From a virus: a stretch of DNA of 48,231 nt. The notes under the pieces are model-generated. The model made no database searches and was not told the origin of the DNA. It was given only the letters and a program-made list of their open reading frames with translations. The DNA is taken from positions 1 through 48,231 of the IMG/VR virus record IMGVR_UViG_3300028859_000030; one strand, written 5' to 3'. Positions 6,553-43,646 of the stretch are shown in pieces (within the stretch, counting starts at the first letter, position 1; every line of letters begins with the position of its first letter). A program made the position numbers and the translations under genes.

Positions 6553-6574
6553 ATCTTATTTCCTCACTGAAATA

Positions 6575-6603
6575 AGTATAGCAAAGTTCGGTACCGAATG
6601 CAA
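6575..6603 (-). promoter_or_regulatory. sigma70-type promoter with TATTTCAGTGAGG leader
   Basis: On the minus strand a -35 box TTGCAT is followed by a 17-nt spacer and -10 box TATACT, then the conserved leader TATTTCAGTGAGG and the ATG at 6552. The spacer contains the palindrome TTCGGTACCGAA, a possible operator. Confidence 0.75.
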
Positions 6604-6637
6604 GCGAAAAATGATCGGAAAACACAAAAAATGATCT

Positions 6638-6762
6638 GTTGAAAATAAAGGACTTATATTGCCCCAAAATGCCACCAATTTTTTCGACAATATAATGCTA
6701 CTCCAGAGGCTAATTGGGGCCCTGCTGGGGTAAAATCAGGAAATCGGTCCTTTAAAATCAAC
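6638..6762. repeat. dispersed intergenic repeat, copy 1
   Basis: This roughly 125-bp element lies between two divergent promoters. One end reads GTTGAAAATAAAGGACTTA and is followed by CCCCAAAATGCC. The middle has ATTGGGGCCCTGCTGGGG. The other end, read in reverse, is GTTGATTTTAAAGGACCGAT, so the element is itself an imperfect inverted repeat. A second copy lies in the opposite orientation at 10823-10947, with the same blocks in the same order. No reading frame crosses it. It may be a regulatory, replication or termination element. Confidence 0.7.
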
Positions 6763-6786
6763 ACTTTACCGATGTAAAAATTGCAG

Positions 6787-6815
6787 TTGACATCGTGATC
6801 GTCATTTGCTATAAT
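6787..6815 (+). promoter_or_regulatory. consensus sigma70-type promoter
   Basis: TTGACA, a 17-nt spacer and TATAAT match the bacterial consensus exactly. The -10 box is followed by the leader TATTTCAGTGAGGAG, which supplies the ribosome binding site for the ATG at 6838. Confidence 0.88.
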
Positions 6816-10994: not shown

Positions 10995-12314
10995 ATGGTT
11001 GAGATGAATCACAATGCGATGGTAGCACTAGTCACCCTTAAGAATGCGGGATTTGAATCCTACTTCGCGGGTGGTTGCGTGCGAGATTCACTGTTGAATC
11101 TTCCGGTTCATGATTGGGATCTGGCCACGAGTGCAACTCCTGATCAGGTCACCGAATTGTTTTCTACCTCGAAATTGGTTGGTAAGAATTTTGGCGTTTC
11201 GGTTGTTAATGTGAATGGTGAGCAGTTCGAAGTTGCAACCTTCCGCGAGGATGGTGCGTATTCTGACAATCGCCGCCCGGATTCTGTTAAGTTTACAACG
11301 GATCCTAGGGAAGATGTTAAGCGCCGTGATTTTACAGTCAATGCACTTCTGATGGACGAATCGGGCAAGGTATTTGACTTTGTTAATGGCCTTGCCGACC
11401 TCGAAAATAAGGTTTTGCGCACGGTCGGCAATCCTAGCGATCGGTTTCAAGAAGATGCTTTGCGCCTGCTGCGAGCCGTTCGATTTGCAGCTCGTTTGGG
11501 GTTCATGCTTGATCCGCTTACCGTGTCCGCAATGACATTGCGTTCGAAGGATGTTACGACTTTGCCCGCTGATCGTGTTGCTGGTGAACTGGCAAAGATT
11601 CTTACTGGCGGTAATGTACAGGTAGCTTTTCAGACAATGGACACCACCGGTTTGCTAGTTCATTTTATGCCGGAACTGTGCAATATGCATGGGGTTACGC
11701 AGAATTCAATGTGGCATCCGGAAGGCGATGTGTGGCAGCATACAATGAAGATGCTTTCTATGCTCGAATCCGGCTGCTCTCTTACGTTGGCGCTTGCAAC
11801 CTTGCTTCACGATGTAGGGAAGCCGGTCACAGCAAAGACAAATGAAAAGACCGGACATAATCAGTTTCACGGGCATGAGCACGTTGGGGCTCGTATGGCT
11901 GAACGGCTGCTTCGTGATTTTCGGTTTTCAAATGAAGTTGTCGGCACGGTGTCGTCTTTGGTTGAAAATCATATGCGGTTTTTTAACACGGAAAAGATGT
12001 CGTTGTCAAAGATGAAGCGGTTTGTTCGTATGGAAAATTTTTCTGAACTGCTTGAACTTAACCGGGTTGACAGCCTTGGTAGTAATGGCGATCTCACCGC
12101 AAACAATTTTTGCCGTGGGTTTCGCGACAACATGAAGGATGAACTTCATCCCGTTCGTTTGCTCACCGGAAACGATTTGCTTGCTATGGGATTTAAGGCA
12201 GGCCCGGTATTCAAGACTTTGCTAGAAGCGGTCGAAACTGCTCAACTCGAAGGCGTAGTTACTACAAGGGAAGAAGCGGTAGCGTTGGTTACCGCTTCTT
12301 CCGGAAAGGTATAA
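10995..12314 (+). CDS. cca: tRNA nucleotidyltransferase / CCA-adding enzyme with HD domain
   Basis: This 439-aa protein follows the bacterial class II layout. The nucleotidyltransferase head has GGCVRD (about residues 26-31) and DWDLAT (about 40-45, carrying the catalytic Asp pair), then RRDFTVNALLMD. EDALRLLRAVRFAARLGF marks the neck. An HD phosphohydrolase domain begins near residue 250, with LLHDVGKP around 268-275. Such enzymes add or repair the 3' CCA of tRNAs, or polyadenylate RNA. This matters here because the phage tmRNA at 15.3-15.7 kb does not encode CCA. Codon use is somewhat GC-richer than neighbours. The gene appears to be leaderless. Poly(A) polymerase activity cannot be excluded from sequence. 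Confidence 0.93.
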   Translation: MVEMNHNAMVALVTLKNAGFESYFAGGCVRDSLLNLPVHDWDLATSATPDQVTELFSTSKLVGKNFGVSVVNVNGEQFEVATFREDGAYSDNRRPDSVKFTTDPREDVKRRDFTVNALLMDESGKVFDFVNGLADLENKVLRTVGNPSDRFQEDALRLLRAVRFAARLGFMLDPLTVSAMTLRSKDVTTLPADRVAGELAKILTGGNVQVAFQTMDTTGLLVHFMPELCNMHGVTQNSMWHPEGDVWQHTMKMLSMLESGCSLTLALATLLHDVGKPVTAKTNEKTGHNQFHGHEHVGARMAERLLRDFRFSNEVVGTVSSLVENHMRFFNTEKMSLSKMKRFVRMENFSELLELNRVDSLGSNGDLTANNFCRGFRDNMKDELHPVRLLTGNDLLAMGFKAGPVFKTLLEAVETAQLEGVVTTREEAVALVTASSGKV

Positions 12315-13656: not shown

Positions 13657-13824
13657 ATGAAGCAGAAGACATCTGAATTTGAAACGACCAAGGCCGCCCT
13701 TGATTTTATTGATTCTCTCAGAAAAGAAAAAGTTGCCGGATATCTAAATTTGTCAAAAAATAAAGATGGCAGTTATGCCTGGTTGGTGACGTACACTCCC
13801 AAGAAAGGTATGAAATTTGAATAG
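13657..13824 (+). CDS. 55-aa hypothetical protein
   Basis: This small frame follows a GAAAGGATATT ribosome binding site. The product (MKQKTSEFETTKAALDFIDSL...) has an N-terminal helix and a C-terminal strand pair (GYLNLSKNKDGSYAWLVTYTPKK). The form resembles a beta-alpha single domain of the size seen in neighbouring small genes. No family is recognised. Confidence 0.5.
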   Translation: MKQKTSEFETTKAALDFIDSLRKEKVAGYLNLSKNKDGSYAWLVTYTPKKGMKFE

Positions 13825-14601: not shown

Positions 14602-14630
14602 TTGCTATATTTTTATTATTGTTGTATACT
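14602..14630 (+). promoter_or_regulatory. sigma70-type promoter upstream of GIY-YIG gene and tmRNA
   Basis: TTGCTA, a 17-nt spacer and TATACT precede a short leader with TTGAGGAAATAAAA before the GTG at 14652. No other good promoter is visible before the tmRNA, so it may also drive that gene. Confidence 0.65.
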
Positions 14631-14651
14631 ATAAATATTGAGGAAATAAAA

Positions 14652-15311
14652 GTGAATATTAAGGTTAATTGGAATTCGATTGATTCGCTGAAAGGTAAAG
14701 TTCGATATTTAAAATCTAGAATTCGAGCGTTAGAAAAGAATGGTCTAGGAGCGGAGAATATCGTTAGGCAGGGTCCAAAATTCGAAGCATATAATTCTAT
14801 ATGGAATTCCGATATTAGCTCGATTTATGAAGATTTAGAATTATCAAACGAAAAGAAATATTTTGTGTATGCTCACTTGAATCCATTGTTTGATCTTGAT
14901 TTAGAAAAAGCAAAAGACGCGTTTGCCGCTAGCCTGGGTATGGAGTATGTTCCTTTTTATATAGGAAAAGGAGTAAATGATCGTGATAAAAATTCGCGGC
15001 GAAATGAAACACATCGAAAAATTTTGCAATCTATAAATTCGTTAAATGAAAAGCATATAGTATTTCGAGTTAAAGGAAGTTTAACTGAAGCAGAAGCATT
15101 TCAAGCTGAATCTAAATTAATCGATATTTTTGGACTTTTAACTAATGGTGGTTTATTAACTAATTTGGATGAAGGGCATCATGCAATACTCAGAAAAAGA
15201 TTATATCGGGATCATCTTAAGACATTGTGTACTAATTCAGTCGGTTATGCAAAAGTAATGAAAGAATTGTATTCGAAACCAATTATGATCAACGAAAAAA
15301 AATTTGCATAA
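14652..15311 (+). CDS. GIY-YIG nuclease, LEM-3-like
   Basis: The start is the GTG after TTGAGGAAATAAAA; the longer frame from TTG 14619 lies inside the promoter. The 219-aa protein has a helical N-terminal third (residues 1-70). The GIY-YIG core follows: YFVYAHL stands for the GIY strand, FYIGKG for YIG, with a catalytic-type Arg and His in DRDKNSRRNETHRKIL. LTEAEAFQAESKLIDIFG supplies the metal-binding Glu. The NLDEGHH close is typical of LEM-3-like domains. Its stop codon abuts the tmRNA acceptor piece. It could be a mobile or homing nuclease linked to the tmRNA locus, or a DNA-processing enzyme. Confidence 0.8.
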   Translation: MNIKVNWNSIDSLKGKVRYLKSRIRALEKNGLGAENIVRQGPKFEAYNSIWNSDISSIYEDLELSNEKKYFVYAHLNPLFDLDLEKAKDAFAASLGMEYVPFYIGKGVNDRDKNSRRNETHRKILQSINSLNEKHIVFRVKGSLTEAEAFQAESKLIDIFGLLTNGGLLTNLDEGHHAILRKRLYRDHLKTLCTNSVGYAKVMKELYSKPIMINEKKFA

Positions 15312-15373
15312 GTTAGAGTCGTACGAAGCATGAATTTCTTTATGCGGACCGGAGTTCAACTCTCCGCGCGTCC
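15312..15373 (+). ncRNA. ssrA: permuted tmRNA, acceptor piece
   Basis: The 3' half of a two-piece tmRNA is encoded first. A T arm is clear: CGGAG (15350-15354), loop TTCAACT, CTCCG (15362-15366). It runs directly into the acceptor 3' strand CGCGTCC (15367-15373), followed by A at the discriminator position; CCA is not encoded. Upstream, CATGA, TTTC and TTTAT (15329-15343) pair in order with TCATG, GAAA and ATAAA (15466-15481) of the coding piece, forming the long P2 helix that joins the two halves. The exact 5' end is uncertain. Confidence 0.88.
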
Positions 15374-15443
15374 AAAAGAATACTGAACTAGTTAGATAGT
15401 TTCGTATTAGATGGATGTGGTGTTACACCCCAGTATTCTACTA
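15374..15443 (+). other. intervening segment of the permuted tmRNA gene
   Basis: This roughly 70-nt spacer joins the acceptor 3' end to the coding 5' end and should be removed on maturation. AGAATACTG (15377-15385) and CAGTATTCT (15431-15439) form a 9-bp helix that stacks as an extension of the acceptor stem, as expected for a precursor processed by tRNA-type nucleases. Confidence 0.8.
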
Positions 15444-15666
15444 GGGCGCGTCACGGTTTCGACGGATAAATGAAAGTCATGTGGACGGCTTGGGTCTTTG
15501 TTATTTTCGCCCATAATTGAAAAATGATATGTATAATTGCCGATTCAATCGTCAATGGCGCGACCAAGATTTTTACGTACCCTGTAAAAATTAGCAATCG
15601 CGAGCTCGCACTAGCCTAAAAACTGTGCGCCGTAGGGTGACCCCGCCTATGTAAAAGAAACGGGGT
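15444..15666 (+). ncRNA. ssrA: permuted tmRNA, coding piece with tag frame
   Basis: The piece starts GGGCGCG (15444-15450), which pairs with the acceptor strand CGCGTCC over seven base pairs, including one G-U. The canonical tmRNA D-like start TCACGGTTTCGACGG follows. The likely tag frame ends with codons for S-N-R-E-L-A-L-A at 15593-15616 and the stop TAA at 15617. The run AAAAATT just upstream resembles the A-rich approach to the resume codon in E. coli. The exact resume codon is uncertain. A stem ACCCCG/CGGGGT (15640-15666) closes the piece. It acts in trans-translation: it charges with alanine, frees stalled ribosomes and tags the protein for proteolysis. Confidence 0.88.
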
Positions 15667-16704: not shown

Positions 16705-17277
16705 ATGACAAAGAATTTATCATCACAAAAAATTAGTTTTATGGATTTAGAAATGTTATGCTGGCCGGATGGAAAATGCCCATTGGGCCAATCGAAGCAT
16801 ATCATTCAAGTCGGTATATGTGAAATTGACTCATACGATTTGAAAATTACTCGAACAGCTAATTATTATATTCGTCCGAATTATAAAGATTTTGAAGTAT
16901 CTGAGTATTGTACTAACCTCACCGGAATAACAAAAGAATTATTATTAAAAGAAGGGAGACGATTTTCGGATGTTATGAATACCATTCGAAATGAATTTTC
17001 TCCGCGAGGAAAAGTTTCTTACGCATGGGGATCGGACAATGATGCTATCATTGAGCAATGTTTAAAAGATAATATTGAAAATCCTTGGGGTAATACCGGT
17101 ATTTGGGATTTGGGTGTTATTTTTCGAAGTAACTATTCGATCAAGAAAAAATTGACGTTAGCAAATGCGTTAAAATATCTTCATTTAACATTCGAAGGAA
17201 AACCGCATAGCGCAGTAACGGATGCTATTAATTTAGGAAGGCTGCATATTGAAATGATTCGAAAGATTCGAGGATAA
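16705..17277 (+). CDS. DEDDh 3'-5' exonuclease (DnaQ/KapD-like)
   Basis: This 190-aa protein has Exo I in FMDLEMLCW (about residues 12-20), an HIIQVGICEID strand, a TNLTGITKELL segment typical of the DnaQ/ERI-1 group, Exo II around WGSDNDAIIEQC, and Exo III as HSAVTDAINLGRLH, giving the DEDDh class. Relatives trim RNA or DNA 3' ends. The ribosome binding site is AAGAAAGATGTA. The stop lies just before the next ATG (TAATATG). It is not closely similar to the exonuclease at 90-635, so the two are not recent duplicates. Confidence 0.85.
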   Translation: MTKNLSSQKISFMDLEMLCWPDGKCPLGQSKHIIQVGICEIDSYDLKITRTANYYIRPNYKDFEVSEYCTNLTGITKELLLKEGRRFSDVMNTIRNEFSPRGKVSYAWGSDNDAIIEQCLKDNIENPWGNTGIWDLGVIFRSNYSIKKKLTLANALKYLHLTFEGKPHSAVTDAINLGRLHIEMIRKIRG

Positions 17278-17744: not shown

Positions 17745-18293
17745 ATGAATATTATTTCAAAAGAAATTCGAATAGATTACGGCCACCGAGTGGCAAGACA
17801 CCAAAATGCAGAAGGCGGACCAGGGAAATGTTCATCCTGTCACGGGCATTCGGGTGTGATTATTGCAGAAATGGTGGGTGAGTTATTCGGTAGCGGCCCG
17901 CAAACTGAAATGGTTCTTGATTATGGAATTCTTAAAAATTTAATGATGACCCATATTGATGCAATGTGCGATCATGCCATGATTATTTCCTTACAAGATG
18001 CGAAGTATGTTGGTCTGGCATATGAAGAGTCCTTGCCCTCAGCTAAGGGCATTATCTTTTCTGATTGGGTAAATAAAATTACGGAAACTGTTCGACAACA
18101 TTCGTTTTGGTCAGGAAAAACTGCATTTGGTAAAACATATATTATTAATGAGTTTCCTACGGCGGAATCTTTGGCAGAACATTTTTTCTATATACTAGCG
18201 CCGCAAATTTTAGAAGCCACAAATAAACAGGCATACCTTACCGGTGTTACTTTTAAGGAAACGCCAACTTCTGTTGCAATTTATCGTCCATAG
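17745..18293 (+). CDS. queD: 6-carboxy-tetrahydropterin synthase QueD
   Basis: This 182-aa protein has the zinc ligands His14 (YGHRV) and His33/His35 (CHGHSG), with adjacent Cys residues for catalysis. LDYGILKNLM, CDHAMI and FPTAESLAEHFF follow, and the close is FKETPTSVAIY with the substrate-binding Glu. QueD converts dihydroneopterin triphosphate to 6-carboxy-tetrahydropterin, the second step towards preQ0 and queuosine. In phages preQ0 derivatives can modify DNA against restriction. The partner genes are not in this window. The ribosome binding site is ACTAGGAGATAT, and a terminator follows. Confidence 0.93.
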   Translation: MNIISKEIRIDYGHRVARHQNAEGGPGKCSSCHGHSGVIIAEMVGELFGSGPQTEMVLDYGILKNLMMTHIDAMCDHAMIISLQDAKYVGLAYEESLPSAKGIIFSDWVNKITETVRQHSFWSGKTAFGKTYIINEFPTAESLAEHFFYILAPQILEATNKQAYLTGVTFKETPTSVAIYRP

Positions 18294-18485: not shown

Positions 18486-19136
18486 ATGGCTATCAAGCAA
18501 AATTCTAGAATTCAAATTCGTTCGGGCCTTCAGCAGAATTTGCCGCAATTGGCGAAAGGTGAACTTTGCTGGGCTGTAGATACTCAACGATTATTTGTTG
18601 GAAATGGAACCATCGTCGACGGCGCCCCATATTCTGGCAACACCGAAATTGTTACTGTTCCTAATTCAACGGAAACTAGTTCCGGCTCAGGTCTTCCGAT
18701 TGCCGGAGTTCCGTCCGGCTCAGTTGATGGAAGCAATAATGTTTTTCATCTTCCATCCACGCCGATGGGAAATACATTAATTGTATGGAAAAATTTTCCA
18801 TTAATACCTGGGGTAGGATATTCTATCGCCGGAAGCACAATTACTTTTACAGAAGCTCCGCAGCCGGACGATAATTTATATTTTTTTTATTGGCAGTATT
18901 TAATATCTACTGGAAGTTCAACCGTATATGGAAATACTACGGTATCCGGCATTATAAATGGTGTCAACTTAATTTTTAATTTGGCATCTTTACCGTCAAC
19001 GCCGGATTCACTTATTTTGACGTTAGGCGGGGTAGTCTTATCACAAAATGACGATTACACGTTATCGGGAACTACTATTACTATGTTTACAGCACCGCAA
19101 ACAAATTCTATATTGAAGGCTTATTATGTTAGCTAA
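18486..19136 (+). CDS. tail fibre / adhesin N-terminal-type protein
   Basis: This 216-aa protein begins with RIQIRSGLQQNLPQLAKGELCWAVDTQRLFVGNGT, the attachment module at the N terminus of many phage fibre and tropism proteins. Two related beta-rich repeats follow (SGSVDGSNNVFHLPSTPMGNTL... and VSGIINGVNLIFNLASLPSTPDSL...), each ending with a strand such as YFFYWQYL or LKAYYVS. It probably joins the phage baseplate to a distal fibre. Its 3' end overlaps the next gene by 11 bases. The start is the ATG after AAGAGAGGAATCTTA. Confidence 0.75.
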   Translation: MAIKQNSRIQIRSGLQQNLPQLAKGELCWAVDTQRLFVGNGTIVDGAPYSGNTEIVTVPNSTETSSGSGLPIAGVPSGSVDGSNNVFHLPSTPMGNTLIVWKNFPLIPGVGYSIAGSTITFTEAPQPDDNLYFFYWQYLISTGSSTVYGNTTVSGIINGVNLIFNLASLPSTPDSLILTLGGVVLSQNDDYTLSGTTITMFTAPQTNSILKAYYVS

Positions 19137-22100
19137 AAAATTATTATTCTTATTTTTATGTTTATTGCCCATTAATTTAATTGCCCAAAATATAACAACC
19201 GTTAACATCCATAATGGGGGAACCGGAGCAAATACCGCCGCAGGAGCTTGGGCAAATCTTTTTACTGGCGCCGGCATTGCGGCTAACTGTCCTGTATTAG
19301 CAACCGCATCTAATGGAGCAATTACTTGCTCTAGTTTTACAGGATTGCCGTCTGGATGGACCGCAACAGGCAGTGGTAGTTCGCAGGTTGTAACAGCTCC
19401 TGGTACCTTCGCGGTAGGCACTCCGATCGCACCGTCGATTACCCTGGACGGGTCCACTGGTAATGGCACATTCTCAGGCACCGTCACGGCTGGCGCTGTG
19501 AACAGTATTGTCTCTTCCTGCTCTTATGCTGGGGCGACCGCCGATGTGCAGATTACGGCGGCTCTCGCGGACATCTCTAGCGGCGGCACAGTGGATGCGC
19601 GATGCTACGGAGCATTAACAATCTATATTGCGGCGCAGGTGCATGTTGCTCCGGGTAGCATGTCAGGGCCTTCCCAAACGTTGCTCTTTGATCCTGCCAC
19701 CAATGTACTTCCTTCGACAAACTCCACGAACATGTTCCTAAAGGGACCGAACGGAACGATCAAGGGCCTTCATACTACTTTTCCTAGCACAGCAGCTTAT
19801 ACCGGGAAGGAAATCACAATCAACGAAAACTCTATTGATGGTGCCACGGGGGGAGTTGAGGACTTCAACTTCAATGTGAGTGCGGAGTCTGCCGAAGGGC
19901 AGCCGGGCGGTTATGGCATTTATGTATCTTCAACCGCCTCGTATTATGGCATTGCCTTCATTCCATTCAAGCACATCCGCTGCTACGGAGGTTATCGCTG
20001 CATTTATATATCGGCTTCTTCTAACGGGTGGGTGAACGATAATATATTCGAAGATGTGCAGGCTACCGGAAGCGGGGCTGGAATCGAACTAAATGCCACG
20101 GGCAATCCTACTCTAGGCAATGCGATTAATAATACGTTTTTTGGCTATACCTATGAAAATCCGAGCGGAATTGGTGGTGTCGGAATTCTGTACTCAGGCA
20201 CAAGTTTTATACAAAATAGCTTCATCGGCGGAGGCGCTTCTATAGACGGCACCGGCGCTGTATTTCAAAACACAAACACCTTTGCAGCTTCGATTGGAAG
20301 CTTAAGTTACTTCAGCCCGATATGGGGAAACGTCAGTAATAATAGTTTCGCTTCTGGTACAGCCACGAATGGAACGGCGACGACTTCTTTTCAGACTAAC
20401 TCTTCTCTGCTCAATAATGGGGTTACTTCCGCTGGAGAGAATCTAACTGGCTACGGTTTCGGGGTAAACGGTGCTGGTGGAAACTATTACCAGCAGGGCG
20501 CAGCATTCGGTGCTTATCTCAAAACCTTCAACACAGCAGGTTTCAAGTGGTACTGCATGTACGGGTCCAATAATCCATCTCTCTGTGCGACGCTTGATCC
20601 AAGCGGAAATTTTCTAGTTCCAGGATCGATGTCTTCTCCGGCGATTATTCCTACTAACATCACTCCCAGCACGTCTCCGGTCTGCGCCAACGGCACAGGC
20701 GGGGCGCTTACAACGACGGGGTGCGCAGGCGGTAGCGGCAGCTATCTTCCCCTCACTGGCGGCACGCTGACCGGCGCACTCAGCGGCACCAGCGCATCGT
20801 TCTCAGGCAACGTCGCGGCTGGCGCTGTGAATGGAGTTTATTCTGTGGCACAGTTTCCCGGCGCAGATGTGGGTGCAAAGATCAATGCCTGCCTTGCCGC
20901 GCTGCCGTCTGGAAAAGGAACATGCGATACACGCGGACTTGGCACAGGCGTCTTCCCAATGGCGCAGATTACTATAGGGAACGGCCAGAAGTTACAATGC
21001 GACTTTGGGCAGGAATTTCAGCCGACGACCGCCGCTGAAACGATGGTGATTCAGAACAACAATTCTATCATCACCGGATGTTGGTTTGACGCCTCAAATC
21101 AAGCGGCATTCTCTGGCGAAGTCATAAGCTATACTGACAATTACCGCGATGGAAGTCAGACAACCTTAGAGCACTCGAAACTCACCGCCTATCCCGTCAG
21201 AACGGGCACTGCGATCTATATATCTGCAACGAACGCGGCTACGCAGTCGATTTACACGGTCGCGTTCAACGATGTGACGATTGAGGGCTTTCAATACGGT
21301 CGATACCTCACAGCCACAACGACAGGTTTCATCAACTCGGTAAGCTTTAATGGGGTGCAGGATTCATATTCGATCATCGGCACGGAAATCAATCCGACAT
21401 CGACGGGACTGATAGCACGAAATAACTTTATCGCGGACAATTTTCAGGCCCTGATCCCCGGCGATATTGGAATCCAAATCGATGGAGCGGGCACCTGGCA
21501 GCAGAATTATTGGACCAACCTCTCTATCTGGGACACGAACAACGGGATCGTCATCAACAACACGACGACTAATGCAGGAAACTTCTTTTTCGGATCATTT
21601 GATGGGTATGCTGTAACCGACCCAACAGGTACTAACACCTTTTGCAATCAATACAATGGAGTTTGCAAATATGGAAATACAATCACGCTGGAAGCAAGCT
21701 CTATCCGCTCGTTTGGTAGCGTCGGGGGCGCTAATCTCTATGCAGGTGGCGTGCTTCCGTTCGCGTCTCAATCTGAGGCAATGGCGGGCTTCAACGCCTC
21801 CACGGGAAACGGAGAGGCAGACTGGTACACGGGACTCTATACCGGGGCGTCTTCTTATGCCCATCAGTGGTGGGCTCCGAATAGCAGCGGAACTGCATGG
21901 CAGTCGCTTATGACGCTGAACGATTCGGGGACCCTGACTCCAATCGGAGGTTTGAGCACTCCGATCCTAACTGTAGGCTCGATTACATCTCCGGCAGCCA
22001 CATCAGCCACAGATTCCGCCTCGCTTGGACCAGAACTGACCACCAGCGGAACATGCAGCGGCACCGGCTGGACAGGGACTTATCCCAACTACGTTGCACC

Positions 22101-23076
22101 TGGAACGACCGCACCGCTGACTTGCACAGGATTTACGAGTGGAAGTTTTTACCAGATTTCGGCAGGAATAACAGGCAACACGGGCAGTGGGACGGTAACA
22201 GTCGCAATCGGGACAGCACAGACGTATACCAGCAGCACGGCGGCAAGCAGCACACTCACATTCAGTCCGAAGGCGAATGGAACTTCGCTTACCTACACGC
22301 CGACTGCGGCTTTTAACGGGACGATAGCGATCAGCGCAAAGAAGATCAACCCCATCACAACCTTTTCGTACACGGGGAAAGACTCGACTGGCGCAGTATC
22401 GACTACCATGCTGTATCAAGGCTTGGCTTCTTTGCACAACATTTTCGAGGGCGGGGGCGGAACATATAACACGACCGGCAGCTACAACTCCGCGCAGGGG
22501 TACAATGCCCTCTACTCCAACACGACCGGCAACTACAACTCCGCGCAGGGGTACAATGTCCTCTACTCCAACACGACCGGCAACTACAACTCCGCGCAGG
22601 GTTACCAGGCTGGTCAATTTATCAGCGACGGTTCGACAGCCAACGCAACCTCTTCAAACAGCGTCTACCTAGGCGCTAACACGGAGGCAAAGGCCAGCGG
22701 CGACACGAATGAAAATGTGATTGGCAACGGAGCAGTTGGGAACGGCAGCAACACCTCAACGGTGGGCAACACTGCAACGGTGGGAACCTGGTTGAACGGC
22801 ACTCAGCACATCACAGCAACAGCGCCCATAACCTCAGCGGGAACTATCGCGGCCTACTCCACCAATGCGGGTGGCGAGATCACCGGCCTGAGCGCGGCAA
22901 CATCCGTGACTATCACCTTTGCCAATTCTGGATGGACAAATGCGGCGTTTTGCACGGCGAACGCGAGTACAACGCTGGCAACCAACGTCTACAACAGCGC
23001 ACAAAGCAACACGGCGGTGACGTTCACCTTCCCATCACTGACCGGCAACCTCTTCTATCACTGCGAAGGAAACTAA
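19126..23076 (+). CDS. large GC-rich tail fibre with signal peptide and beta-helix modules
   Basis: This 1316-aa protein starts with a lipoprotein/Sec-like signal sequence (MLAKKLLFLFLCLLPINLIAQ), unusual for a phage fibre. It then carries glycine/alanine/threonine-rich repeats. Two right-handed beta-helix (pectate-lyase-like) modules have matching leaders (YAGATADVQITAALADISSG and FPGADVGAKINACLAALPSG). A carbohydrate-binding-like beta domain comes near residue 960. Three 17-residue repeats (NTTGNYNSAQGYNALYS) of the trimeric adhesin type follow, then a C-terminal knob. The gene is far richer in GC than its neighbours, and the modules recall acidobacterial proteins. It overlaps the upstream attachment-module gene. 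Confidence 0.75.
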   Translation: MLAKKLLFLFLCLLPINLIAQNITTVNIHNGGTGANTAAGAWANLFTGAGIAANCPVLATASNGAITCSSFTGLPSGWTATGSGSSQVVTAPGTFAVGTPIAPSITLDGSTGNGTFSGTVTAGAVNSIVSSCSYAGATADVQITAALADISSGGTVDARCYGALTIYIAAQVHVAPGSMSGPSQTLLFDPATNVLPSTNSTNMFLKGPNGTIKGLHTTFPSTAAYTGKEITINENSIDGATGGVEDFNFNVSAESAEGQPGGYGIYVSSTASYYGIAFIPFKHIRCYGGYRCIYISASSNGWVNDNIFEDVQATGSGAGIELNATGNPTLGNAINNTFFGYTYENPSGIGGVGILYSGTSFIQNSFIGGGASIDGTGAVFQNTNTFAASIGSLSYFSPIWGNVSNNSFASGTATNGTATTSFQTNSSLLNNGVTSAGENLTGYGFGVNGAGGNYYQQGAAFGAYLKTFNTAGFKWYCMYGSNNPSLCATLDPSGNFLVPGSMSSPAIIPTNITPSTSPVCANGTGGALTTTGCAGGSGSYLPLTGGTLTGALSGTSASFSGNVAAGAVNGVYSVAQFPGADVGAKINACLAALPSGKGTCDTRGLGTGVFPMAQITIGNGQKLQCDFGQEFQPTTAAETMVIQNNNSIITGCWFDASNQAAFSGEVISYTDNYRDGSQTTLEHSKLTAYPVRTGTAIYISATNAATQSIYTVAFNDVTIEGFQYGRYLTATTTGFINSVSFNGVQDSYSIIGTEINPTSTGLIARNNFIADNFQALIPGDIGIQIDGAGTWQQNYWTNLSIWDTNNGIVINNTTTNAGNFFFGSFDGYAVTDPTGTNTFCNQYNGVCKYGNTITLEASSIRSFGSVGGANLYAGGVLPFASQSEAMAGFNASTGNGEADWYTGLYTGASSYAHQWWAPNSSGTAWQSLMTLNDSGTLTPIGGLSTPILTVGSITSPAATSATDSASLGPELTTSGTCSGTGWTGTYPNYVAPGTTAPLTCTGFTSGSFYQISAGITGNTGSGTVTVAIGTAQTYTSSTAASSTLTFSPKANGTSLTYTPTAAFNGTIAISAKKINPITTFSYTGKDSTGAVSTTMLYQGLASLHNIFEGGGGTYNTTGSYNSAQGYNALYSNTTGNYNSAQGYNVLYSNTTGNYNSAQGYQAGQFISDGSTANATSSNSVYLGANTEAKASGDTNENVIGNGAVGNGSNTSTVGNTATVGTWLNGTQHITATAPITSAGTIAAYSTNAGGEITGLSAATSVTITFANSGWTNAAFCTANASTTLATNVYNSAQSNTAVTFTFPSLTGNLFYHCEGN
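22468..22617 (+). repeat. 51-bp tandem repeat in the fibre gene
   Basis: Three nearly identical 51-bp units start at about 22469, 22520 and 22571, coding for NTTG-(S/N)-YNSAQGY-N-(A/V)-LYS. Such exact DNA repeats allow slippage that changes fibre length. The unit pattern matches trimeric head/stalk repeats of adhesins. Confidence 0.85.
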
Positions 23077-23487: not shown

Positions 23488-26400
23488 ATGCCAATATCAA
23501 AAACAATAGATTTTTTACCGCCATATTTACGAACGCGTCCGAATAAAAGATTTCTAGATAGCACGTTAGATGTGCTAACTTCCCCACCACAACTATCTAG
23601 ATTTAATGGTTATATCGGAAGACAATGGAAAAATGGCACATTGCTAGACGGCTCTTACCTATTAGAGTCAACCGCGCCTAGGCAGAATTATCAATTAGAA
23701 TCAGCGTTTGTTACGACAGACGACCAAAATAACATAACCAATATTTCTAATTTTATTGATGTACTTAATGCTACCTCAAACAAAGATGGCATCGTATCTG
23801 ACTGGGCTCGAATATTAACTTCCGGAATGTATAGTTGGAAGGGATTTGTCGACATCGACAAATTAATAAATTATCAAAATTATTATTGGCTGTATCAACC
23901 GGTAGATAATATTCAATCCGTTAATGCATGGTACTGGAATAATAGCATAGAAATTAATGATTCTATTAATAATGTGCAGGGCCATATTTCTTATATAACA
24001 TCAGATAATATAACATTATTAGACGGCATGATTGTATCAATTGCTAACGTAAGTTATATTGTTGAAGGTGTTGGAAAAGAAATTGTTTTAATTCCGTTAA
24101 CAAACATTCTAACTCCTTCGTTTGCCGCCGATCAAAATAATCCTCCTGATTATTTGACAATAAACCGTTCTGCTCCAGATCTTAATTTATGGAGTCGCTC
24201 AAACTTATGGGTACATAAAGATACAGTCAATGCTATAATATCAGCGCTGTCCTTGGAAAATACTCCCCAGAGTTTCATAGCAGCAAATCGGCCAATAATT
24301 GAATTTATACCTTTAGTTTTATTTGATCAGGGAAGAATTGGTCTATCACCAGTTACATACGTCGATTTTTACACACCTAATGCTTTTTCAATTGTACAAG
24401 GTGCAGCTAGTTTTTCATATAATGGTACATCACTAAAATCTGGTGATAGTGTAATTTTTGCCGGCGACAAAAACAGCAACGTACGAGCAACACTTTATAC
24501 CGTTAATTTTATTGATCCAAATAATACAAATAACTTTGTAATTCATCTTTCCCCATCGCAAGTCGCGGTCGAGAATAATTGTACATTGGTTACAAGCAGC
24601 AATGAGACAATAATATTTGACGGATCAAATTGGGCTGTATCCTCGCAGAATAAAACCGGTATTAATCAGGCGCCGTTATTTGATGTGTTTGATCTGAATG
24701 GTAATAGTCTTGCTAATGTTTCATTTTATCCAGATTCAGATTTTGCCGGCAGCAGTCTTTTTTCATATGAAATTGGAGTAGGATTAAATGATTCTGTATT
24801 GGGATTTCCGCTGTCATATGGTCCAATTGGCAATCTAAACGATGTTATTTTTACAAATAATTATGTATCTGATACTTTTTCCTATCTAACTACAGGAACC
24901 AATCCGCAAAGCATTATTATAGGAAGAGCGCACCAAATTGATTCGATTTCCCATGATGAATCAATATATGATGCGTGGCAATATGTTAACGGTGATAGGC
25001 AATTATATCAAAATACTGTCGCTTTTGGATCGAATATTATTCGAATGGTTGGAACATTATTAAATGGATTGTCACCACAGATTTTTGTAGATGGCACCAA
25101 ACTATCAGCCGATCAATTTACCGTTGTCCAACTCGGTGAAAAAATTGTTGTTACCATTAAATTTGATCTAATCTCTGTAAATAGTGTTGTTTTTCTTAAA
25201 ATTCAAAGTGCAACACCAATAACAAATGCTTGGTACGACGTTCCTTCGGCATTTAGCAATAATCCTCTAGGCCAAAGTTTGCCTGTATTAACAATGAGTA
25301 ATATTAGAGATCATGCTACTACAAGCCAGGTTAACGCAAATGATTCTAGCCGCATAATAGACTTACAGCTTAATTCTTATCAGGGCGTTGCTGGAAGTAT
25401 GCTATATCAAGAATCATTACCAATTTTGCCAGCCCTATTATTAACAAACCCCCAGTTTGATATAGATCAGGCTATTAGATCAGCGGGTGAAGACTATATT
25501 TCCTTTAAACAAAAATTAATTAATACGTTTTCCCAGATTTCAAATGCGCAAAATTTATCATCGAAACAGGTGGTTGATACCGCATTACAGACTATTGCCT
25601 CGATTTACACATCTGGCCAACCCTGGGCTTCAAGCGATATGTGTTACTGGGGCGGGAAGCAAACGTCGATAACAGTTTCTAATGTTAGAGCTGTTACATT
25701 TAATTTAACACAAGTTTATAATTGGAATGCTTCAAATTATCAATCGTTACAGGTTTACATAAATGGAACCCAACTTACGTATGGAATTGATTATAAAACT
25801 ACAGATAATATACTAACTATATTACGAACATTAAACCTAAAAGATTTAATTAATATATATGAGATTTCCAACACTAGTGGATCTTTCATACCGGCAACTC
25901 CAACTAAGTTAGGTCTTGCTGCGGCATTCATTCCGCAAATGTATATCGATTATACATATCAAACTCCTAGAAAAGTTATTCAAGGTCATGACGGAAGCAT
26001 AACAGAATGCTTCAATGATTATCGTGATAATTTACTTTTGGATTATGAATTACGTGTATATAATAATCTTAAGGTTAACAATCAACAGTGGGTTGATATT
26101 ATAGAAACCCGGGTTCATCAAACAAGTAAATTTGCAACCGGCGTTTATTCTGAAGCCGAACAATTAAATATTTCGCAAAGAATGTTTTATGAATGGACGG
26201 CACAATATAATATCAGTTCAGATAATAATTTCTACGACGAGAATAATCTATTTACCTGGAACTGGAATTCAAGTCTTGATAAATTTGGGCAACCATTATT
26301 AGGATACTGGAGGGGAATTTATGATTGGTTCTATAATTCCGAGAATGTAAATACTCGTCCATGGGAAATGCTTAATCTGTCGATTAAGCCGTCATGGTGG

Positions 26401-30889: not shown

Positions 30890-33800
30890 GTGATAAGTCA
30901 AAGCGTATTCAGTAAATTCGTATTGGTTGATTCTATTGTTCCGTCGGACTCTGTATTTCAGCAAGTGGGACAAAACACCAAATGGTTAGGACCCGATCTT
31001 ATTGGCACCGTTAAAACTATAAACAATCAATCCGTGCCAAACCCCGAAGATTCTTTTTTGGACGGTACATACTTTGATGGGTTACAAAATAAGTTTATAG
31101 AATTAACAACTGAATCCGCTCAAAATATTACAATTTATCAGGTATTAACAACGAAAAGAACCTGGGTAGATTCTACACAGGATATAATTCAGCTTACCCC
31201 TGTTAACAATATTATTCTAGAAAAAAGTGTTCAGCCGAATCTAATATATGCTGGAAATATCGAAAACATTTTTATTACCGATTCGGCAAATCCCGAAGAA
31301 ACAATAAAAATTTTTAATAATACAAATTTATCGCATGGTTGGACTGTCGAAACTTCACAAGAGCTGCCTATTGACCCGGCTAGCATAAGCAGAGCTTGGA
31401 TTTATGACTCTGTTACCAAAATTAAATTAGTTGATCTAGAAGTAGTCGACCTATCATCTGGCATATTACCAGGTACACTTGATGAAAATTTAGATTATAT
31501 ATGTGACAATGATCCAGCAATTTATAATATTCCAAATTGGATGCCTGGAGCATTGTATAACATTAGCGATCGTGTGCTTTACGGTGGATTACTTTATCAA
31601 GCCCTGCACGCTGGAAAAAGTGGAAGCGTTTTTAACAGTAAGTTATGGACATTAATTGAATCTAAAAACACCTTTACTAGCCCGGGTAATGAAAAATGGG
31701 GAAACGCTCAACTAGGAAAAACCTGGTTCAAGACACAAAATCTTAAGACAGTAAATGCACAATTAGGCACGATTTCACAACGGGCATCTGATTGGAATCA
31801 ATGGTTCCCAAACTCCCAAATCGAAGTATATGAGTGGGTATCTAGCGCTGTTCCACCCGCAGCATATTCAAGTTCGGATGCAAACGGATATATAACCGAC
31901 CCCAATTGTCCATATACATTTGACGCAGCATCTAATGCTCCCTATGGATTCTGGGTATATGATAAAACTCTGCCCGGTACAAGACATGATATGTCTACTG
32001 ATCAATTAATATCTGCCTTGGCAAATATTCCAAATTCTGGAATTCCTATGTTAACGGCTATCGATACTAATGCCGTCGCTGTGTGGAATATTAACCAATT
32101 TATATCTGCAAACACCGTTATTTTACATATAGATTATGTTCTAGAATCTGCCGATAATCAACCCCACAATGAATTTGCGTTAATTAGTAACGATGGTACA
32201 AAGTCATGGTATCACACTCCAATCTATCAAAAATTTATCGATAGTTTAACTGGAGTTACCTCATTCGACCTTCTAGTACCCGACATTACATTACCTAGTA
32301 GTCAGCAAACCGGAATCTTAGAAAACCCGGTTCAATCAATTTTTGTTAATCGAGTAACAGCACTAGACATTTATTATTCTGTTATTAATTCACAATTAGC
32401 AAATTTAGCAGTGACATCTAGCGCAATTATATCTGCATTAAGCGCGAGCGATCCATTACCTATTTCGGGTTTTTCTCAACAACTGTCGAATAGAACTATT
32501 CTTAATCAACTAGACATTACTCTTTTTCCTGAAAATTACCGAATTTTATTAACCGAAGATTCTACTCTTAATAATTATTGGTCAATAGTAGCCGTATCAA
32601 ATGGTGAGTGGCAAATCGTACAAACGCAATTATATGATCTTAGTAAGAACTGGAAATATATTGATTGGTATTCCCCAGATTATATTTCGACTCAGCCAAC
32701 TTACAGCCTAAATTCAATCGGTGATCTTCCTCAAATTACCTATAAACTTAATGACGTTGTTCAAATTAATGGGGAAAACGGTAATAGTAGCATATATCTA
32801 GCAACCGCAAATTCTTTAGATTCAAATATACTTGAACTAGAACCTATTTTAATTCACAATGGCTCTATTCAATTTTTACCAAATCTTTATGATTTTATTT
32901 CTTCTGGCATTGGGTTTGATGTGTCTTCCTTTGACGCGGAACCATTTGATAATGATCCATATCTCGAAATTAGAATGATAACCAGCATTCTTAACGACAT
33001 GATTTTAGTTGGAAACGATGATCTTACTAAGGCTGCCGATCGGGCATTTTATGCGGTTATCCAATATATTATGTCTGAAAATAAAAATCTTGATTGGTTA
33101 TTTAAAACTAGTTTCGTATCTGTGAATTATACAAATCGTAGTCTTAATATTCAAGGAAATTATGAGCCAGACAATCAATCAACAATAGAAAATTTTATTC
33201 AAGAGACTACTCCATTCCATACTCGAATACGTCAATTCAATGATACATACACATCTGACGATTATGCAAATATAGGAATATCAGATTTTGATTTACCTGC
33301 ACAATACGATAATAATTATGCAAATATTGTTCTAGAATATACTAATAACGTACGACCAAATGGTCTGTTACAACTAAGCCAGTTTTCAAATATAACCGGC
33401 GTCTTCGCAGACGCAACCTCTTTTTATGTTACAAGTAATGGGTTACCAAATTATGCAACTAACTTTCCTCAGGTAGATGATGAAACCGCGGTAGAACCGC
33501 AAAATTGGTCCTTTGGCTTTCCACAAAGTATTCAAACCGCCAATACTACATTTACCACTATTATTAATGTTAACGGGCCAGAGGCATTAGCTACAAATGG
33601 AATTCCATTTTATAGCTCCAACAGTGGTGAAAACGAAACACTCTATCAACTAGGAAATATAGCAAATCAACAAACATTAACAATAAATTCGGTATGGGAA
33701 GCAATACAAGATGGTCTAGACCCCGGTGCCGGTTATCCAAATGAAAATGGTGTTTTTCAATATTTTTCGGATCCGTATTTGTTATACACTAAAAATTCTT

Positions 33801-35869
33801 CTTCTCATAGCCCAATAATAGGATATGCATGGGACGGTAGTCCAATTTATGGCCCATACGGATTTGCAAATGCCAATGGCACCGGGGGAATAATTAAAAA
33901 TACTAGTAGTTATGAGTTGTCATTAATCCCTAGATTAGATGCGAGTGGGCAACCTATTGTTAACGGCTTGCAGTTAGCAATTTATTCGGCGCCTTCCGGC
34001 AAATATATTCAAGATTTTAATTATGTTGCTAATTTAGGTACATTAGACGAAAATAATGGTCGTCAATGTGTTACCCCGGAATATCCAAACGGAATTTATG
34101 CATATTTTATTACAGTTGATAACAATAATGTACCAACTTATCCATACGTACTGGGACCAAATTATAACGGAATACCGTTTAATACCGCGTATACCTATAT
34201 AAATGGTAATAATATTCCTGTATATTCCAACGGAAATATAACTATTCCCTTCCTTCCTGTAATAGATACCGTTAACGGGTTTATTAGAACCCCAGACGGA
34301 TCTGTTAGTTCGGATCCAGTAACCTTACAATTACCAGTTTATTCAGCATGGAACAATAATTACATTAACAATAGTAGTCTTATTAGGTCAATAGATACGA
34401 CATTGCGCTTTGATCGTGTAAGTTCTTCCATCGAATATCTAGATGCGAATGTTTCTTATCCTGTTAGCTCGGTCTTATATGATACCGCCAATAGCGCTTT
34501 CGTTGAAGGTGCAATTTTTTCAGTTGCTAATGTTGAGCTAGTTAACTCCGGACAGCATTATAAAGTATTTGACCTATTAAACTTGGAAGGAGGAACATAT
34601 TCAAATAGTGCAACTATATTAGTTACATCGATTGATAGTTCACATAATAATTCTATATCAACTTTTTCATTAGTACCCGCAGAAGACGAATATTATACTT
34701 CTTTTCCGTCCAACATCGCAAATGTGTTAACGACTGATATTACCGTGAATTCTATTGGTTACGGCGCGACATTTAGTGTTAATTTCCAAAGAAATATAGC
34801 AAATAATAATTCTATTGCTGAATCAACGGCAATGAATAGAATTACAGCATTATATGAACCAACAAATAATATGTTTGCAAATCAGGCGCGACTATTAATG
34901 AATAACGTGGAGTATCCAGGTGTTTTTGTTAATGGCGGAGACATGGTTCAAACGTACTCAATTCCAACCGGATCTCTATATGATATAGATGACGATTCTG
35001 AGTTTACATCTCTTAATGTTGCATGGCATCCAAATCTTATAACTAATACAGGATTATCTATGGTCAATGCTAGGTTTGGAAATTCGTCCGGGTATTTTGG
35101 GGGCGCATCATCCCAGTATATAACGGCAAATCAAGCAAGTCCTGATATAAATGATTTAGGAAATACTTCCAATATTTTTACTATTGAATTTTTCTGTAAC
35201 TTTTCAAATATCAATTCAAATATTATGACGTTGATTGATACCCGGTTAAATAATTCTAGTAATAATGGGATGGTTATTTATAAAAATAGTGCAAATTATA
35301 TTTGCTTTGGTGAAAACACAAGTAATGCATTCATATCTAGTCTTCTCCCAGTAACTATCAATGACTGGACTTATATTACTGTACAGGGCAACGGCAATAA
35401 TCTTTATATATATTTTAATGGAATGTTAAACGAATCTGTCGCAAATATTGGGTTACCAATTTTTTCGGATTCAAGTCTAACTATAGGAGCTGAAATTTCA
35501 GGTGCAAATATTTTTTCTGGATACCTCGATGAATTACGATGGACGACAGGCATTACTAGATATACGCCGGGAACAATAATAATTCCTATTCCAAATCAGC
35601 CATTCCCTAGAAATTTAGCAGGAGATCCATATTTTAATTTACCATACACTCCAATAATTTATGGATTTGAATCGTTAAATAACGAGGCTAGTCCAACTAT
35701 TACTTTCGAAGCGGTTAATTCAGTAACATATATTAACGATTTATCCTGGAATCAAAAACAATTAGAGTTAGTCAATTATGGGTCGAATCTTAAAATAGAT
35801 TCTTCTCTATTAAATACTAATATACAACCACAAAACAGCTTAATAATGGCATTAACTTTGAATCAATAA
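30890..35869 (+). CDS. large tail structural protein with YHYH-like and LamG domains (N-terminal part)
   Basis: This 1659-aa protein starts at GTG after AAGAGGGAG. It has an N-terminal beta region, PNWMPGALYNISDRVLYGGLLYQALHAG (a carbohydrate-binding-like WxxxxxYxxGdxVxYxGxxYxA module), and SENKNLDWLFKTSFVSVNY with DFDLPAQYD, as in T4-like cyanophage proteins. A YHYH-type segment (GYAWDGSPIYGPYGF, about residue 980) precedes a LamG-type jelly roll (FTIEFFCNFSN ... GYLDELRWTTGITRYTPG, about residues 1410-1560). It ends in the first strands of a second LamG domain. The rest of that domain continues in another frame, so this is probably the front part of one protein interrupted by a frameshift near 35821-35866. 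Confidence 0.75.
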   Translation: MISQSVFSKFVLVDSIVPSDSVFQQVGQNTKWLGPDLIGTVKTINNQSVPNPEDSFLDGTYFDGLQNKFIELTTESAQNITIYQVLTTKRTWVDSTQDIIQLTPVNNIILEKSVQPNLIYAGNIENIFITDSANPEETIKIFNNTNLSHGWTVETSQELPIDPASISRAWIYDSVTKIKLVDLEVVDLSSGILPGTLDENLDYICDNDPAIYNIPNWMPGALYNISDRVLYGGLLYQALHAGKSGSVFNSKLWTLIESKNTFTSPGNEKWGNAQLGKTWFKTQNLKTVNAQLGTISQRASDWNQWFPNSQIEVYEWVSSAVPPAAYSSSDANGYITDPNCPYTFDAASNAPYGFWVYDKTLPGTRHDMSTDQLISALANIPNSGIPMLTAIDTNAVAVWNINQFISANTVILHIDYVLESADNQPHNEFALISNDGTKSWYHTPIYQKFIDSLTGVTSFDLLVPDITLPSSQQTGILENPVQSIFVNRVTALDIYYSVINSQLANLAVTSSAIISALSASDPLPISGFSQQLSNRTILNQLDITLFPENYRILLTEDSTLNNYWSIVAVSNGEWQIVQTQLYDLSKNWKYIDWYSPDYISTQPTYSLNSIGDLPQITYKLNDVVQINGENGNSSIYLATANSLDSNILELEPILIHNGSIQFLPNLYDFISSGIGFDVSSFDAEPFDNDPYLEIRMITSILNDMILVGNDDLTKAADRAFYAVIQYIMSENKNLDWLFKTSFVSVNYTNRSLNIQGNYEPDNQSTIENFIQETTPFHTRIRQFNDTYTSDDYANIGISDFDLPAQYDNNYANIVLEYTNNVRPNGLLQLSQFSNITGVFADATSFYVTSNGLPNYATNFPQVDDETAVEPQNWSFGFPQSIQTANTTFTTIINVNGPEALATNGIPFYSSNSGENETLYQLGNIANQQTLTINSVWEAIQDGLDPGAGYPNENGVFQYFSDPYLLYTKNSSSHSPIIGYAWDGSPIYGPYGFANANGTGGIIKNTSSYELSLIPRLDASGQPIVNGLQLAIYSAPSGKYIQDFNYVANLGTLDENNGRQCVTPEYPNGIYAYFITVDNNNVPTYPYVLGPNYNGIPFNTAYTYINGNNIPVYSNGNITIPFLPVIDTVNGFIRTPDGSVSSDPVTLQLPVYSAWNNNYINNSSLIRSIDTTLRFDRVSSSIEYLDANVSYPVSSVLYDTANSAFVEGAIFSVANVELVNSGQHYKVFDLLNLEGGTYSNSATILVTSIDSSHNNSISTFSLVPAEDEYYTSFPSNIANVLTTDITVNSIGYGATFSVNFQRNIANNNSIAESTAMNRITALYEPTNNMFANQARLLMNNVEYPGVFVNGGDMVQTYSIPTGSLYDIDDDSEFTSLNVAWHPNLITNTGLSMVNARFGNSSGYFGGASSQYITANQASPDINDLGNTSNIFTIEFFCNFSNINSNIMTLIDTRLNNSSNNGMVIYKNSANYICFGENTSNAFISSLLPVTINDWTYITVQGNGNNLYIYFNGMLNESVANIGLPIFSDSSLTIGAEISGANIFSGYLDELRWTTGITRYTPGTIIIPIPNQPFPRNLAGDPYFNLPYTPIIYGFESLNNEASPTITFEAVNSVTYINDLSWNQKQLELVNYGSNLKIDSSLLNTNIQPQNSLIMALTLNQ

Positions 35870-35877
35870 GAGGAACA

Positions 35878-37494
35878 GTGGGCAACGGATACGCAAGAGC
35901 GATAGGCGATAGCGATTATAATTTTGGTTATCAAGATTTCACGATAGAATTTTTCGTCGAGACCTTTAGCCACATTGGGGCGCAAACATTATTCGAAATT
36001 ACTAATAATGAATCCTCGGCTACCGATTTATACAAAAAAACTAGATTCGTTACATTATTGGAAAATGGAAATATTAATACATATGCCCTTCAAAGTAGCT
36101 GGCCAATAATTCTTTCGAGCGGCAACAATTTTTTCCAATTACCAGGAGCCGAAGCCAGTAATATTAAAATATTTTATAACGGCACATTATTAGCTACCGA
36201 TCAATATACTTTTATTAATGGAAATGTAACATTGTCTAGCGATGTAATCGTATCTGGAACTGTTCTAGTAGAGGCCTGCGAGATATTATTTTCAATACTA
36301 GGGAATCAAGTTTCTGAAACTACTACCCATTTTGTTAGTGTTGAACGTAAAGACAGCAAATGTTATTTATTCTTAGACGGAGTATTACAAGGTAACGCTG
36401 CTACCGCATTAATTAGTATTCCCGATCAATTAATAACAAATTCGATACCCCCGTATCAGGTACTTAATCGGACCAATGGTCCGGCGCTATTAACTATTGG
36501 CGCCAACAAAAATGGGGAAAATCCATTATTAGGAAAATTCGGTGATATTCGAGTAACAAAAGGGGTTGCGCGGCATGTAGTAACTTTAAACGAGCAAAAT
36601 TCTATTTATAGTCTATCAACGGATACTACTTTAGGTACCCGAGCGCAAGATATTAATATTTACGGTGGAGGATTTGTAGATAGCATGACTAGTCATGCTC
36701 CCGAAGAACGAATAGAGGGACAAATTTTTGATACTCTAGAGATCGATGTTTTTCAAAATGCAAACTGTTCATATTTAAGTTCAAATATATCAAATATCTC
36801 TGCTCCAATTTCTAATATAGCTAATCCTTATTTTAACGCAAATGCCTTATTATTAGGCTATAGAATTTTCAAAGATAGCATTTCGATTGGCCCATTCGAT
36901 TCTTATCAATTTACTACAGCAAATTCCTTTATCTATAAAGTGCCATGGAGTACATTAGATAATGACTCAGCTACTATACAAATCGATGGAATAAGTCTTC
37001 CATCGGCTAGCTGGTCCATTAAAAATAATAATTTAGTTTTGCCGTCTGATATACCGGCAAATAGTAATGTAGTTATTACTTTAACTGGCGACGTTACGTA
37101 TTATAGCCTAGGAGCAAATGCGGTATCCACATTAACTGCCAATCTTAATTCAACTGATTCAACTATATCTGTTCAAAATACCAATCAATTTATAACTCCC
37201 GTATTAGCGGCTAATCTTCGAGGGCAAGTTTTTATAAATGGCGAATGTATAACTTATCTATATATTAATCGAACAAGTAATATTTTATCGGGATTAATGC
37301 GCGGCACTTCCGGCACAGGTATACCAAATGTTCATTTAGCTAATTCACAAATCGTGGTGGCATCGTTCACCCAACAAGTTACCGCGAATCCGGGTTCAAC
37401 CTCGTGGTATGATTCGGCTAATGTTCCATTAGCTAATTCAAATTCTGCAATTTCGACATTTTTGCTTTCACAAGGTGCATTTATCCCGGCATAA
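35878..37494 (+). CDS. LamG-containing tail structural protein (C-terminal part)
   Basis: The annotated start is GTG after AAGAGGAACA (538 aa), but the frame is open back to 35821 and reads NNGINFESIRGTVGNG before the GTG. That is the expected start of a LamG domain parallel to the one in the upstream gene. The domain follows as YQDFTIEFFVETFS ... FGDIRVTKGVARHVV. The C-terminal part is beta-rich with FINGECITYLYINRTSNILSGLMRGTSGTG, a phage structural motif. It is either translated separately from the GTG or joined to the upstream frame by a -1 shift. Confidence 0.7.
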   Translation: MGNGYARAIGDSDYNFGYQDFTIEFFVETFSHIGAQTLFEITNNESSATDLYKKTRFVTLLENGNINTYALQSSWPIILSSGNNFFQLPGAEASNIKIFYNGTLLATDQYTFINGNVTLSSDVIVSGTVLVEACEILFSILGNQVSETTTHFVSVERKDSKCYLFLDGVLQGNAATALISIPDQLITNSIPPYQVLNRTNGPALLTIGANKNGENPLLGKFGDIRVTKGVARHVVTLNEQNSIYSLSTDTTLGTRAQDINIYGGGFVDSMTSHAPEERIEGQIFDTLEIDVFQNANCSYLSSNISNISAPISNIANPYFNANALLLGYRIFKDSISIGPFDSYQFTTANSFIYKVPWSTLDNDSATIQIDGISLPSASWSIKNNNLVLPSDIPANSNVVITLTGDVTYYSLGANAVSTLTANLNSTDSTISVQNTNQFITPVLAANLRGQVFINGECITYLYINRTSNILSGLMRGTSGTGIPNVHLANSQIVVASFTQQVTANPGSTSWYDSANVPLANSNSAISTFLLSQGAFIPA

Positions 37495-37501
37495 ATATAT
37501 G

Positions 37502-38236: not shown

Positions 38237-38245
38237 GGAATACTA

Positions 38246-42368: not shown

Positions 42369-42395
42369 TAAAATAACCATAATTTTATTTTTAAT

Positions 42396-42583: not shown

Positions 42584-42599
42584 ACAAGGAAATATATTT

Positions 42600-43623: not shown

Positions 43624-43646
43624 ATCTAATTAGCACGGGGTGAATA

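Follow-up and report, generated by a model that had tools for sequence, protein, structure and literature searches.

Organization of the permuted tmRNA gene

The stretch of viral DNA analysed here (the window, 48,231 nucleotides) encodes a circularly permuted tmRNA in two pieces, the gene of which is preceded by a GIY-YIG-like endonuclease ORF and followed by genes for an RNase_T-type exonuclease and a QueD-like protein (Table 1). All the elements named in the initial annotation, from the T arm and acceptor strand at the start to the tag at the end, were found base by base in the sequence and in the permuted order. The seven acceptor base pairs are complete (CGCGTCC with GGGCGCG at 15444-15450, 7/7) and pair 3-70 is G-U. 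The three blocks of P2 are all complementary: CAUGA (15329-15333) with UCAUG (15477-15481), UUUC (15335-15338) with GAAA (15472-15475), and UUUAU (15339-15343) with AUAAA (15466-15470). An extra outer helix (5-7 bp) is formed by about 15316-15322 and 15485-15491. No templated CCA follows the discriminator A15374, the bases at this place being AAA. A 9-bp helix closes the spacer (AGAATACTG at 15377-15385 with CAGTATTCT at 15431-15439), and the removal of this spacer by tRNA-processing enzymes is expected. The coding piece then runs GGGCGCG-UCAC-GGUUUCGACGG, P2 5' strand, resume region, tag and a stem-loop (15641-15665) that would mark where the mature RNA ends. The tag is an open frame of 26 codons (15539-15616, then TAA) with GCC as resume codon; it contains an internal KIFTY motif and terminates in ELALA, thus -ALA versus the canonical -LAA.

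Table 1. Features of the permuted tmRNA locus and its surroundings (window positions)
Feature	Position	Strand	Evidence or remark
CCA-adding enzyme (tRNA nucleotidyltransferase)	10995..12314	+	phrog_2244 E 1.7e-75; PF01743 E 2.2e-36
Small ORF	13657..13824	+	local gene order
GIY-YIG-like endonuclease ORF	14619..15311	+	phrog_314 E 3.6e-5; Pfam LEM-3_GIY-YIG E 8.9e-4, below cut-off
Permuted (two-piece) tmRNA gene	15312-15666	+	sequence, ARAGORN, Rfam RF04321
tmRNA acceptor piece	15312..15374	+	sequence; RF04321 15317-15619; ARAGORN 3' tRNA domain
P2 3' strand, in acceptor piece	about 15316-15343	+	then CGGAC
T arm CGGAG-TTCAACT-CTCCG	15350-15366	+	sequence
Acceptor 3' strand CGCGTCC	15367-15373	+	then discriminator A15374
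Intervening spacer, about 70 nt	15375..15443	+	RNAfold of precursor
tmRNA coding piece	15444..15666	+	GGGCGCG, GGTTTCGACGG, P2 5' strand, tag, 3' stem-loop
P2 5' strand	15466-15491	+	coding piece
Tag frame ADSIVNGATKIFTYPVKISNRELALA, then stop	15539..15619	+	ARAGORN; synonymous bias vs L169
3' stem-loop CCCCG / CGGGG	15641-15645 / 15661-15665	+	coding piece
RNase_T-type exonuclease	16705..17277	+	PF00929; synteny
QueD-like 6-pyruvoyl-tetrahydropterin synthase	17745..18293	+	phrog_2389, PF01242; synteny with G045

ARAGORN calls the locus a permuted tmRNA and made no such call on 200 dinucleotide-shuffled windows. The covariance-model check proposed in the initial annotation came out only in part: the alpha_tmRNA, beta_tmRNA and cyano_tmRNA models named there (RF01849, RF01850, RF01851) stay below their cut-offs, and RF04321 (tmRNA_permuted) alone reaches its gathering score, with an end-to-end match (model positions 1-213) of 60.3 bits (E 2.6e-9) against a curated cut-off of 47 bits. 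Within the class this is a low value, almost every other phage record reaching 66-148 bits, and it is by itself no proof of permutation, because three standard tmRNAs from bacterial genomes obtain 60-65 bits with the same model. The permutation is established by the order of the pieces, the ARAGORN call and the lack of a second T arm, as neither a GTTCRA T-loop nor a CGCGTCC strand occurs between the tag and position 16100. The P2 duplex (-20.1 kcal/mol) was equalled by 2 of 1000 shuffles. When non-cognate P2 strands from 20 phage tmRNAs were combined, 37 of 38 such pairs did less well than the cognate strands of the window. Cofolded by themselves, the two pieces have an unremarkable energy (z = -1.3).

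Phage genome and conservation of the locus

The window is 100% identical to positions 39899-88129 of an IMG/VR contig of 105,056 bases (G001). A 60.6-kb contig matches it perfectly over the tmRNA region, and an 81-kb contig over a tail-gene segment; the identity of the tmRNA region in three assemblies has no bearing either way on its age. Genes for T4-like baseplate, clamp-loader, recombination and DNA polymerase proteins, recognised from sequence, are present on G001 and make the phage origin of the tmRNA, as claimed earlier, secure. Its baseplate wedge protein gp6 shares 31-34% identity with those of RaK2, Munch, Atu_ph07 and Phosso. Together with the T4-type replication genes, this places the phage, outside any formal taxonomy, among the Rak2-like jumbo phages of the T4 superfamily, as judged from sequence. 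There are no tRNA genes across the 105 kb of G001. No SmpB was found on this contig or among 50 phage records, a good part of which are fragments, and the host SmpB must therefore serve.

Two true relatives with a tmRNA were recovered in pattern scans of IMG/VR: locus L170 on a contig of 359,890 bases (G045), which harbors homologs of 58 G001 ORFs at about 33-71% identity, and locus L169 on a 16-kb contig (G046). They share with the window a common gene block consisting of a phosphoesterase (G045 only), small ORFs, the tmRNA, the RNase_T exonuclease and QueD (G045; no significant match for QueD was found in G046). The exonuclease is the conserved downstream neighbour of the tmRNA, with 52% amino acid identity in both relatives. 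The permuted order of the pieces, the tag plan ([KE]I.TY) and G3-U70 are likewise common to the three. Their acceptor stems differ (GGGCGCG/CGCGUCC in the window, GGGAAUG/CAUUUCC in L169, GUGGGUG/CACCUAC in L170), with compensatory changes at pairs 2, 4, 5 and 6, and the 3' stem-loops covary by eye (CCCCG/CGGGG, CCCCG/CGGGG and GCCUUG/CAAGGC). In contrast to the window, both relatives have a templated CCA and a 24-nt spacer, and their contigs harbor neither a CCA-adding enzyme nor a GIY-YIG-like gene at the site.

In a manual alignment of 23 codons, the codon changes between the tags of the window and of L169 are synonymous in 8 cases and non-synonymous in 6, and all gaps are in frame. The same number of random substitutions would produce 12.7 non-synonymous changes on average, and six or fewer were obtained in none of 20,000 simulations. 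This bias indicates that the tag frame is under selection at the protein level. Synteny, compensatory changes in the acceptor stem and mainly synonymous changes in the tag argue for a retained gene, probably functional, and not for a recent capture or debris. Since the tmRNA is syntenic in two diverged relatives, it is an old resident of this jumbo-phage lineage. The tmRNA is therefore informative on the history of the phage, as the initial annotation proposed, but in a different sense than was meant there, pointing away from a recent capture from a host. Phage tmRNAs are treated as occasional cargo; here, the gene keeps its place between phages whose proteins are about 50% identical and shows both compensatory and synonymous changes, which argues that ribosome rescue matters to the phage itself.

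Loss of the templated CCA

Within the lineage, only the tmRNA of the window is devoid of a templated CCA, and its spacer has 70 nt versus 24 nt in L169 and L170. The gene of a CCA-adding enzyme lies 3 kb upstream of the tmRNA. No such enzyme is encoded on the G045 and G046 contigs, although the 360 kb of G045 harbor about 50 tRNAs. The loss of the templated CCA and the gain of the enzyme form a single correlated event in which either change may have come first, and this pairing suggests one possible reason why some phages carry such an enzyme. Both changes, with the GIY-YIG-like gene inserted next to the tmRNA, look unreported. The nearest cellular relatives of the enzyme found in a pattern-limited scan share about 40-45% identity and belong to PVC and other, mixed phyla. 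None of 12 genomes with related enzymes has a permuted tmRNA above the cut-off; enzyme and tmRNA were therefore probably not acquired jointly from them. Two broader statements were considered and rejected: the tmRNA of the window is not the only one lacking CCA, which is missing from another 8-9, most of them cyanophage-like, and a CCA-adding enzyme does not imply the absence of CCA, as Tunturi_5 and Phosso have both.

The GIY-YIG-like ORF, a weak domain match, ends 1 nt upstream of the tmRNA. No homolog of it was found in the sister phages that carry L169 and L170, and the stretch that contains it is absent from both. In G045 and G046, the tmRNA is directly preceded by an ORF that the small ORF at 13657..13824 resembles by eye; in the window, about 1.5 kb with the GIY-YIG-like gene lie between this small ORF and the tmRNA. 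The GIY-YIG-like gene may have homed to its place beside the tmRNA.

Comparison with other permuted tmRNAs

Phage-borne permuted tmRNAs are already known, and dozens more are present in IMG/VR. Published cases include Methylophilales phage Melnitz, and 53 two-piece structures, 50 of them aquatic, were reported in INPHARED (PMC9004378); the tmRNA database of 2025 lists 79 unique phage tmRNAs of all forms (PMC11915505). As in Melnitz and the pelagimyophages (PMC9004378), the permuted tmRNA of the window has no integration-site signature and presumably relies on host SmpB. Those phages have marine hosts, an ssrA of alphaproteobacterial type and a glutamine riboswitch, whereas the window belongs to a jumbo phage of the T4 superfamily, with a 26-aa tag, an untemplated CCA and no alpha_tmRNA match.

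Our IMG/VR scans gave 176 permuted calls by ARAGORN (111 distinct), a pattern-selected and redundant set that is no census. All 68 distinct tRNA-like domains of permuted phage tmRNAs, a set selected to have 6 or more acceptor pairs, retain G3-U70; 54 of them encode ACCA, and the cyanophage-like ones do not. A motif [KNE][VIL][LIFYRA][ATSP][FY], similar to KVLAF or KIFTY, is present in 16 of the 24 examined phage tags of at least 20 aa (shuffled tags: mean 0.24, maximum 3); as it was defined on the same tags, many of which are related, the figure measures non-randomness and not independent origins. The codons of the motif vary synonymously. For comparison, 299 Pseudomonadota genomes yielded 30 permuted tmRNAs, 28 of which have a readable tag. 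The motif occurs in none of these 28 tags, which have 10-13 aa and are mostly of the form ANDN...AA; the alphaproteobacterial permuted tmRNA (RF01849) differs from the window in these tags and resembles it in piece order and tRNA-like domain. Cyanobacterial tags contain a related NIVxF segment. The motif of long phage tags looks unreported, and no report of it or of this jumbo lineage was found among open-licence papers. It is conceivable, and we propose it only tentatively, that large phages share a class of permuted tmRNAs whose long tags carry a second, internal signal ([K/N/E]-[V/I/L]-x-[A/T/S/P]-[F/Y], for example KVLAFP or KIFTYP), giving rescued chains a phage-specific fate beyond the C-terminal degron. 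If so, this fate could involve another protease or an adaptor. The long tags with a shared motif offer a handle on whether phages redirect incomplete proteins during infection. At six IMG/VR loci (L014, L025, L042, L026, L002 and L003), the phage tag terminates in -FAV or -ALV and not in -LAA, and such termini look like weakened degrons.

Two known phages have unannotated permuted tmRNAs. That of the isolate Tunturi_5, a phage of Tunturiibacter, lies at 157899-158195 on the minus strand of PP885688.1 (L081:2900-3196; 86.4 bits). It received no ARAGORN call and is not mentioned in the text of the paper on this phage (PMC11924767). Like the window, Tunturi_5 has a long tag, read by eye as AKNSPVVRGTAKVLSFARKFVPAVSSTRAFAMAA (34 aa, with KVLSF), and a CCA-adding enzyme (47% identical); unlike it, its CCA is templated and its host belongs to the Acidobacteriota. 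The CCA-adding enzyme of the window is closest to that of Tunturi_5, a tentative hint of a link to Acidobacteriota, but only five G001 proteins have homologs in this phage. Tunturi_5 provides a culturable system for a permuted phage tmRNA. In Sinorhizobium phage Phosso, a permuted tmRNA of alpha type (L082:2054-2743, minus strand; 108-113 bits) reaches RF01849, unlike that of the window; the roughly 360-nt insertion in its spacer has no Rfam match, group I introns having been looked for.

Proposed function and alternative explanations

We consider it probable, at roughly 80%, that the locus is a working phage gene for a two-piece tmRNA that is processed, charged and used for tagging via host SmpB. 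From what is known of the family, host tRNA-processing enzymes would excise the spacer from a single precursor transcript, and the resulting acceptor and coding pieces would stay joined through the acceptor stem and P2. As CCA is not templated, it would be added enzymatically, by the CCA-adding enzyme of the phage or that of the host, and AlaRS would charge the RNA via G3-U70. In the infected cell, host SmpB would then bring the tmRNA to ribosomes that have stalled on broken mRNA, where the nascent chain would gain the 26-residue tag ending in ELALA and be released, probably marked for proteolysis. The internal KIFTY motif, common to the long tags of other phages, may act beyond what a cellular tag of 10-13 residues does. 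The low score within the class, the lost CCA, the larger spacer, the endonuclease-like neighbour and the -ALA end are points against a working gene.

Some of these points would fit a processed RNA that binds SmpB or ribosomes and mainly competes with the host tmRNA, dampening host trans-translation. The -ALA terminus and the lack of a phage SmpB, which makes competition for host SmpB necessary, are in line with such a decoy, and a precedent exists in the tag-less tmRNA of phage DS6A, reported to dampen host trans-translation when expressed in E. coli (cited in PMC11915505). A decoy needs no tag, however, and here the tag is open, in frame and synonymously biased, with G3-U70 and the resume region kept, which makes this explanation unlikely. 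Early decay would also fit the lost CCA, the enlarged spacer and the endonuclease-like insertion: the gene could have been functional in the ancestor shared with L169 and L170 and failing since the insertion 1 nt upstream of it, as the lowest-scoring member of the class, with its CCA lost and its spacer grown from 24 to 70 nt. Such a relic is hardly probable, given that the acceptor stem, T stem, P2, resume codon, 26-codon frame and stop are all intact and that the gain of a CCA-adding enzyme renders the CCA loss harmless. Finally, the RF04321 scores of standard tmRNAs could speak for a chance resemblance, or for a standard tmRNA or tRNA misread as permuted. The probability of this is negligible: none of the 200 shuffles was called, the downstream T arm is absent, and the same permuted order in two diverged relatives, with synteny and compensatory changes, refutes it.

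Other features of the phage genomes

A tail-fibre-like ORF (window 19126-23076) has about 54% GC in a genome of 36% GC and no relatives in the phage and plasmid collections; it is likely a recent import. Of two host-like proteins of the window, neither has relatives in plasmids, one has none in bacterial genomes, and the tail protein has none in phages. A non-coding stretch at window 42379-42620 forms a long imperfect inverted repeat (about 71% self-complementary), and a related repeat of 230 bases occurs at window 6564-6792 and, inversely oriented, at G001 31190-31418. About ten paralogs of phrog_11975 type are present in this single phage (window 2982-3569 and 39976-40539; G001 35366-39294 and 90997-98436), with the plan L-Y-R-G ... 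L-R-x-N-S-I-F-C ... F-P-x-x-G-F. They have no match in Pfam, and the set looks like an expanded ADP-ribosyltransferase-like family. A SegE GIY-YIG gene, a DnaJ-like protein and a ClpA/ClpB-like double AAA+ unfoldase lie in a row at window 43171-46544, a phage chaperone or unfoldase set that is kept in G045. Moreover, an HNH-like ORF (100552-101745) interrupts the DNA polymerase B gene at G001 98798-102941. Finally, G045 harbors at 24352-25279 predicted tRNAs with anticodons CTA (two) and TTA, candidate suppressors for TAG and TAA.
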